Shown here piece by piece: positions 42,991-43,635 of a stretch of 46,809 bases of DNA. The notes beneath the pieces are model-generated. The model saw only the letters and a list, made by a program, of their open reading frames with translations. It did not search any database and had not been told where the DNA came from. A program made the position numbers and the translations under genes. Each line of letters starts with the position of its first letter. The stretch's first letter is position 1. Source of the DNA: Planctomycetota bacterium (GTDB taxonomy: Bacteria; Planctomycetota; Planctomycetia; Gemmatales; Gemmataceae); contig JAJPHU010000091.1 in assembly GCA_021325115.1 (NCBI GenBank), forward strand, positions 1 to 46,809, given 5' to 3'.

Positions 42991-43557
42991 CTATGGCTTA
43001 TCGGCGTCCGCCTCAACACGAAGGCGGTCAAGGACGTTCTCTACCCCAACCGTGGTGTTCGCCAACTCGACAGCACGGCGGCGTTGCGTCAGGTCGGCGA
43101 CGGTGCCGTTCAATTCGACCACGCCCGGCCCGGCCAGACGCACCTGCACATCGGCGCCGGTCATGTCGCTGTCCCAGCGCAGCCGCAGGGCAACGCGGCT
43201 ATCCAGGCTGGCTTCGCTTAGCGAACCACGCACCGCCCCCCAGCCATTATGCAGCTTATCGCGCAGACGCCCTGTCACGCCATCGAATTTGGCAGCGGTC
43301 TTGTGGAAGACGCGCGCCAGCAAGTCGGCGTCTTGGCTGCAACCGCAGCTTGTCAACGCTAAGCTCAATATCAGCCCTAGAGCGCATTGCAAGTAGATGG
43401 AGCGGCTATATGTCTTCCTCCCTCCCTCCTTGTGGGGGAGGGCTGGGGTGAGGGGTAGGACGCTCTCCCCCCCCACCCCAACTCTCCCCCACAAGGAGGG
43501 AGGGAGAAAAACGCTACACCCACTTGCAATGCGCTCTAGCCGGAAGCGTCCGCCCAT
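42991..43557 (-). CDS. BON-domain lipoprotein interrupted by an in-frame MITE-like element
   Basis: Currently 188 codons from ATG 43557, which follows a perfect AAGGAG at eight bases. Codons 1-6 read MGGRFR. Codons 7-59 are the 53-codon element at 43377-43539. Then the frame resumes with LGLILSLALTSC, the rest of a lipoprotein signal peptide with Cys as lipid site, and a BON-like domain (about residues 115-185: RVALRLRWDSDMTGADVQVR...GVVELNGTVADLTQRRRAVEL..VGVENVLDRLRVE). BON domains bind membranes or peptidoglycan-associated partners. With the insertion, the charged leader is separated from the hydrophobic core, so export may fail unless an internal TTG (just before QCALGLILSLALTSC) starts translation. 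It lies downstream of the RND adaptor gene. Confidence 0.8.
   Translation of the reverse strand: MGGRFRLERIASGCSVFLPPSLWGRVGVGGESVLPLTPALPHKEGGRKTYSRSIYLQCALGLILSLALTSCGCSQDADLLARVFHKTAAKFDGVTGRLRDKLHNGWGAVRGSLSEASLDSRVALRLRWDSDMTGADVQVRLAGPGVVELNGTVADLTQRRRAVELANTTVGVENVLDRLRVEADADKP
43377..43539. mobile_element. MITE-like element with 18-bp perfect terminal inverted repeats and CTAG duplication
   Basis: CTAGAGCGCATTGCAAGT at the left end and its exact reverse complement at the right, 163 bases in all. The inner part is a second long inverted pair rich in CTCCCTCCTTGTGGGGGAG. Counting CTAG as the duplicated target leaves 159 bases, exactly 53 codons, open in the frame of the BON lipoprotein gene. 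No transposase is encoded, so any movement would need one in trans. Confidence 0.85.
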
Positions 43558-43578
43558 TGAGTCTACTCCTTGTCCGTG

Positions 43579-43635
43579 CCGAGCCGGAAGCGTAAGCGAC
43601 AGATACCTTGCCGTCACTTATGCTTCCGGATCGGC
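43579..43635. repeat. GAGCCGGAAG-family palindromic repeat
   Basis: GCCGAGCCGGAAGCGTAAGC faces a near-complementary arm (CTTATGCTTCCGGATCGGC) with a short loop. It lies between the RND adaptor stop and the BON lipoprotein ribosome-binding site. Confidence 0.82.

Follow-up and report, generated by a model that had tools for sequence, protein, structure and literature searches.

An in-frame insertion of a species-specific MITE ahead of the signal peptide core of a planctomycete BON-domain lipoprotein

RESULTS

The window, a 46,809-bp contig from a planctomycete of the family Gemmataceae, contains a gene for a BON-domain lipoprotein that is interrupted in codon 7 by a miniature inverted-repeat transposable element (MITE). 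The insertion is real, specific to this lineage, and lies in a gene under constraint; its reading frame was most likely kept by chance. We favor the following account, with a probability of roughly 80%. A nonautonomous MITE, mobilized in trans by a DDE-type transposase, would have inserted at a TA within Y-TA-R in the BON gene of an RND/HlyD group, duplicating the TA. The frame would have been preserved by the combination of a 157 + 2 bp length and a single open phase. Translation from the ATG at 43557 would now give a 188-aa preprotein with an n-region ~53 residues longer than before, and export and lipidation probably continue, with an intact core and lipobox preceded by a newly added basic RKTYSR. 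Separately, a hairpin of -134 kcal/mol just past the start probably cuts output, for example, via RNase III.

Structure of the element and its host gene

A sequence-only reading of this locus had proposed an element with perfect 18-bp terminal inverted repeats (TIRs), and both ends are indeed present: CTAGAGCGCATTGCAAGT occurs without mismatch at 43377-43394 (+) and 43522-43539 (-), with 0.05 matches expected by chance in shuffled sequence. Within these 18 bp, CTA is target sequence that includes the TA, and the next 15 bp are the element's own perfect terminal repeat. Pairing of the arms continues imperfectly beyond 15 bp and takes in the entire 157-bp element, and the computed fold of the corresponding RNA is a single hairpin of -134.1 kcal/mol beginning ~20 nt past the ATG. 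The element plus one TA accounts exactly for the 159 bp (53 codons) that had been described as added (Table 1). Translations of the window copy yield short repeat peptides and no transposase.

TABLE 1 Features at the insertion locus (positions in the window)
Feature	Position	Strand	Remarks
BON-domain (PF04972) lipoprotein gene	42991..43557	-	188 codons at present, 53 from the insertion; ATG aligns with the ATG of the G002 orthologue
TA target duplication, copy 2	43378..43379	.	
MITE, A family, long form	43380..43536	-	157 bp, GAGCGCATTGCAAGT...ACTTGCAATGCGCTC, near-perfect hairpin
Inverted pair of CTTGTGGGGGAGGG-type modules	inside 43380..43536		
TA target duplication, copy 1	43537..43538	.	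5' side of the element in gene reading direction
AAGGAG ribosome-binding site	43566..43571	-	8-nt spacer to ATG 43557
Second, unrelated palindromic repeat, CCGGAAGCGTAAGCGAC...GTCACTTATGCTTCCGG	43582..43632	.	BON gene leader; missing from G002

Four features that define a MITE were found. Inserted lengths are 92 to 159 bp (MITEs being <600 bp and free of transposase coding sequence), the element is almost fully palindromic with perfect 15-bp ends, and the target site is duplicated, as seen also at two ungapped empty sites in a congener (G002). Copies are dispersed through the genome (33 end matches; 21 two-ended copies examined).

The BON domain (PF04972) is found in the host protein with an E value of 2.6e-10. 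On one side, the gene is flanked by an RND-type permease frame (read from its translation) and an HlyD-type protein; on the other side lies a double GNAT protein. A longer 208-aa frame exists from an upstream GTG; the ATG at 43557 is the start that aligns with that of the relative, and it stands behind a perfect AAGGAG, as had been claimed. The proposed reconstruction of a lipoprotein signal also holds: once the element and one TA are removed, the joined flanks encode MGGRFRLGLILSLALTSCGCSQDAD, in which a basic n-region, a hydrophobic core, and a lipobox cysteine are present (MGGRFR-LGLILSLAL-TSC). The corresponding signal of the G002 orthologue reads MSRRTWQR...LLSC. The core LGLILSLAL and lipobox LTSC are unchanged by the insertion and now occupy residues 60 to 71, formerly 7 to 18, behind an n-region of ~60 residues to which the element contributes its basic RKTYSR ahead of the core.

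Empty site and timing of the insertion

In a protein search of relatives, the G002 orthologue was 86% identical, with the match starting right after the element. When the element and one TA are omitted, the window gene aligns with that of G002 without gaps from ATG to stop (the N terminus above versus MSRRTWQRLMGSLALLSCGCSQDAD), and the HlyD and GNAT genes on either side are conserved there at 82 to 85% DNA identity. The orthologue from Planctomycetota bacterium Centralia_MAG_388 is likewise 86% identical over the same residues, and G002 is therefore taken to be this genome. G001 and G003 have short N termini (MRYRW[MI]LVGTV[AS]LCGCSDD) and lack the element; no relative shares the 53 codons. 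On these alignments, the empty site in G002 and the short N termini in G001 and G003 show that the insertion arose in the lineage of the window species after its split from G002. Because both flanks are syntenic with G002, an assembly artefact at this locus is unlikely.

The sequence-only reading had described a recent, frame-keeping insertion into an intact gene. The empty site bears out the frame and the intact gene. Recency does not follow, as the event is dated only to after the G002 split and the nearest long-form copy is 136/158 identical (86%), with no copy identical to that in the window. A recent burst of the element is, given the same 86%, equally unsupported. For a second empty site (L072 versus G002), two bases must be retained to obtain a gap-free alignment. 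At five further copies (L063, L064, L068, L069, and L078), the flanks were too diverged or split over contigs for the whole junction to be compared.

Fate of the interrupted gene

Over the mature part of the protein (118 codons), comparison with G002 gave 17 nonsynonymous and 42 synonymous changes (dN/dS of 0.094, a value that spans the whole G000-G002 divergence and is no proof of function after the insertion if the insertion came late). Relative to two outgroups, four lineage-specific changes fall on the branch of the window species (G000) and four on that of G002, with no acceleration on the former. These substitution counts show that the mature protein has been under purifying selection since the G002 split. 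Because dN/dS is low, the own branch is not accelerated, and the core and lipobox are intact, we favor a lipoprotein that is probably still translated, lengthened, from its original ATG; this is the simplest reading. Of the outcomes offered initially (a changed protein, an internal start within the element, or loss of function), it corresponds to the changed protein, while loss of function is less favored by the same dN/dS and branch counts.

A challenge to a still-translated lipoprotein comes from the RNA. As modeled, the hairpin may lower output of the BON gene, and a coding-region RNA hairpin of ~70 bp may even block expression fully. It is therefore possible, if rather doubtful, that the insertion silenced the gene, either by stopping ribosomes or through RNase III cleavage, and that we see a young pseudogene not yet decayed. 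The predicted stability of the single hairpin and its position so close to the ATG are consistent with silencing, Correia/NEMIS hairpins are RNase III sites (PMC2229807), RNase III processing has also been proposed for an in-frame QMITE2 (PMC5896051), and an open frame would cost a silenced gene only a chance of ~1 in 6 to 1 in 8. Against this, the 188 codons contain no stop or frameshift, the four-to-four branch counts give no sign of acceleration on the own branch, and the window copy, being identical to no other, need not be very young. An internal start, at the GTG in GVGG or the TTG in YLQC, would shorten the n-region and restore a near-normal lipoprotein signal. The in-frame GTG has a GGGGAG stretch ~7 nt upstream, and the TTG would yield MQCALGLILSLALTSC (both read from the sequence), yet the GTG and its purine stretch lie within the hairpin stem, the nearest GGAGG is ~24 nt ahead of the TTG, and the original ATG, the homologue of the G002 start, is still in frame behind an intact AAGGAG. 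We consider such a shift in start site improbable.

The lengthened lipoprotein also raises the question of whether its frame reflects chance or selection. Only one of the six phases of the window copy is fully open, namely, the phase in use, and across the A family 16 of 126 phase-orientations (21 copies) combine a length divisible by three with the absence of stops (13%). Frame keeping is thus unsurprising, with a chance of ~13 to 17%, and a single gene of this kind gives no reason to infer selection for frame. Among the copies examined, the window copy alone is in frame inside a gene, and most others are intergenic or in stop codons. A search of joined flanks for interrupted frames yielded no further clear in-frame gene insertion, a test weakened by long spurious frames in GC-rich DNA. 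Selection for the 53 codons, as a useful new segment or as a regulated n-region instead of a tolerated addition, is very improbable. In its favor, the frame is preserved and Rickettsia genes contain many in-frame palindromic elements (PMC10969869); against it, a single examined copy behaves in this way, an open frame has a chance of 13 to 17%, and no relative has the insertion. The preferred reading remains a tolerated extension, and the locus offers a natural test of the tolerance of a lipoprotein signal peptide for extra N-terminal sequence, here 53 codons together with a highly stable RNA hairpin.

The A family and its target duplication

Searching with 14 end bases (one mismatch allowed) retrieved 33 A-end matches in the window species' own genome, while a reversed control pattern retrieved none. 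A 98-bp consensus matched 19 copies over most of its length, plus longer copies. The same consensus found no true A copy in 94 other genomes of the family (G002 has the inner module only), and a strict 24-base end pattern had no match in a species-genome collection that possibly does not include the own genome. As far as these searches reach, the A family appears species specific among the genomes scanned; it is new in that no match was found elsewhere, and its kind is already known. The basic copy adds about 92 to 98 bp. Two long forms, the window copy (159) and L026 (158), have a longer center with two inverted CTTGTGGGGGAGGGYTGGGGTG-like modules.

The duplication at the window locus had been given as CTAG. 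Those letters do flank the element, but the duplicated unit is TA: TA is present on both sides in 15/21 A copies, whereas CTAG is on both sides in only 5/21. All 15 of the TA-flanked copies have C or T ahead of the TA, and 14/15 have G or A behind it. This places the duplicated TA in a Y-TA-R context, of which the window's CTAG (C-TA-G) is one instance. In 10 TA-flanked copies, the outer bases are not directly repeated (CTAG..CTAA, TTAG..CTAG, TTAG..CTAA, and CTAG..CTAT), which rules out a 4-bp CTAG duplication. Genome copies without CTAG had been named in advance as grounds for rejection, and their existence disposes of the CTAG part of that claim. The TA is missing on at least one side in the remaining 6/21 copies (CTG..GAG twice, CTC..GAG, CTG..CAG, CCA..TAG, and CTA..TGG). 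Mutation after insertion is a possible cause in some of these; the complementary pairs CTC..GAG and CTG..CAG are not accounted for by TA duplication. Four TA-less copies (L078, L079, L067, and L068) have outer bases that are complementary (TC..GA or TG..CA) or read TG..GA, and at L078 the GCCACCT on both sides may be a longer direct repeat.

Two further observations concern this family. The inner CTTGTGGGGGAGGGYTGGGGTG-like module repeats on its own, with 123 matches in the own genome and 364 in G002, where copies of the form CTTGTGGGGGAGGGTTGGGGTG lie partly in tandem (e.g., L090:1460-1700); G001 and G003, two other species of the genus, have 0 to 1. At L076 (G000:C330:208-303), an A copy lies in an ABC-type ATPase-like frame that stops at the junction; the element may have broken this gene, or the frame may be an older pseudogene.

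Insertions in stop codons

In 7/21 A copies, the insertion is exactly in a stop codon, with the junction TA being the TA of the stop, at the ends of frames of 247 to >500 codons (L062, L063, L064, L065, L070, L072, and L077; junctions at about 1500 or 1598). Without the element, the stop reads TAA or TAG; with it, the stop is rebuilt as TAG because the first base of the element is G. In G002, the orthologues of the genes at L072 and L064 stop at this same point, with TGA and with TAA (the latter read from the sequence), respectively. In the same stretches, stop codons are expected to provide 5 to 6% of all Y-TA-R sites and 9 to 14% of those outside genes. Under the stricter null, the excess has a P value of 0.0004 to 0.018. 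Since the pattern was tested after it had been seen, with simple open reading frame calls and partly overlapping stretches, the apparent enrichment is treated as a lead. We suggest, with more doubt than confidence, that the element ends, which place a purine after the TA, suit insertion into TAA or TAG and rebuild a TAR stop. Elements would then land preferentially in stop codons, where they do no harm, and the window copy would be an exception at a gene start that survived only through its frame-keeping length and phase. Stop-codon insertions suggest a simple route by which mobile elements could spread without gene damage.

Relation to known palindromic elements

In-frame insertion of a MITE or palindromic element is a known phenomenon (PMC10969869), and in this respect the present case is fairly ordinary. 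Rickettsia palindromic elements are ~150-bp palindromic repeats found in frame in protein genes, to which they add tens of residues (PMC10969869). The window copy resembles them in size, palindromic structure, and in-frame position; unlike them, most copies here lie between genes or in stop codons. Neisseria (Correia/NEMIS elements) and pneumococcus (RUP) likewise have short TIR elements with TA at their ends and a TA target, and RUP has been attributed to IS630-Spn1 (PMC2229807). The A family differs from both in its TIR sequence, in that no partner IS was found here, and in having GC-rich instead of A+T-rich internal modules. In QMITE1 and QMITE2 of Coxiella burnetii, too, copies overlap stop codons or extend gene 3' ends, some are inserted in frame, and stable hairpins occur (PMC5896051). 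Their direct repeats are variable, with 2 to 3 nt or 7 to 11 nt (PMC5896051), in contrast to the TA or, in a second family (B), TWA found here. With the present set, a MITE family specific to one species is on record from an environmental planctomycete, together with proven empty sites.

The B family and the mobilizing enzyme

The draft genome (383 contigs, 93.7% complete) was searched for DDE_3, Y1_Tnp, DUF4096, and DDE_Tnp_1 domains with TIR checks, and no transposase with matching ends was found. The domain matches include transposase remnants (IS630-type DDE_3, IS5-type DUF4096, and other DDE_Tnp_1), none of which has these ends. An IS630/Tc1-mariner derivation agrees with the TA duplication of the A family and less well with the TWA of the B family; the five DDE_3 matches are weak or partial, none with a matching TIR. 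An IS5 (IS427/IS1031) derivation agrees with both duplications, while the DUF4096 and DDE_Tnp_1 remnants in this genome lack matching ends. A REP/RAYT origin gains no support from the single weak Y1 transposase match (PF01797), which lies within a 777-aa frame. The IS427 and IS1031 groups of the IS5 family and the IS630 family generally show TA or TNA target duplications and short TIRs, as do the elements described here. TA together with TWA would match the IS427 and IS1031 groups, and TA by itself would be compatible with IS630. The A and B elements differ from both families in that no genome copy of either has their TIRs, the end sequence being GAGCGCATTGCAAG (A) or GAGCTAGCGGACC (B).

The B family was recognized from elements that pair one A end with the differing end GAGCTAGCGGACC. 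Its ends are GAGCTAGCGGACC and GGGCTAGCGGAC, and the family is palindromic and species specific: GAGCTAGCGGACC has 130 matches in the own genome (≤2 mismatches; L117-L186) and essentially none elsewhere. The duplication is 3 bp: of 33 readable copies, 19 show TAA/TAA and 7 show TTA/TTA (TWA in 26/33). Sizes cluster at 56 to 57, 131 to 139, and 168 to 171 bp, which suggests that the size classes arose by module addition. Because A and B ends are joined within single elements (L119 and L146), one enzyme may move both families. Repeats of the CCGGAAGCGTAAGCGAC type, as in the BON gene leader, are elsewhere the target of B-family insertions (L134 and L140).
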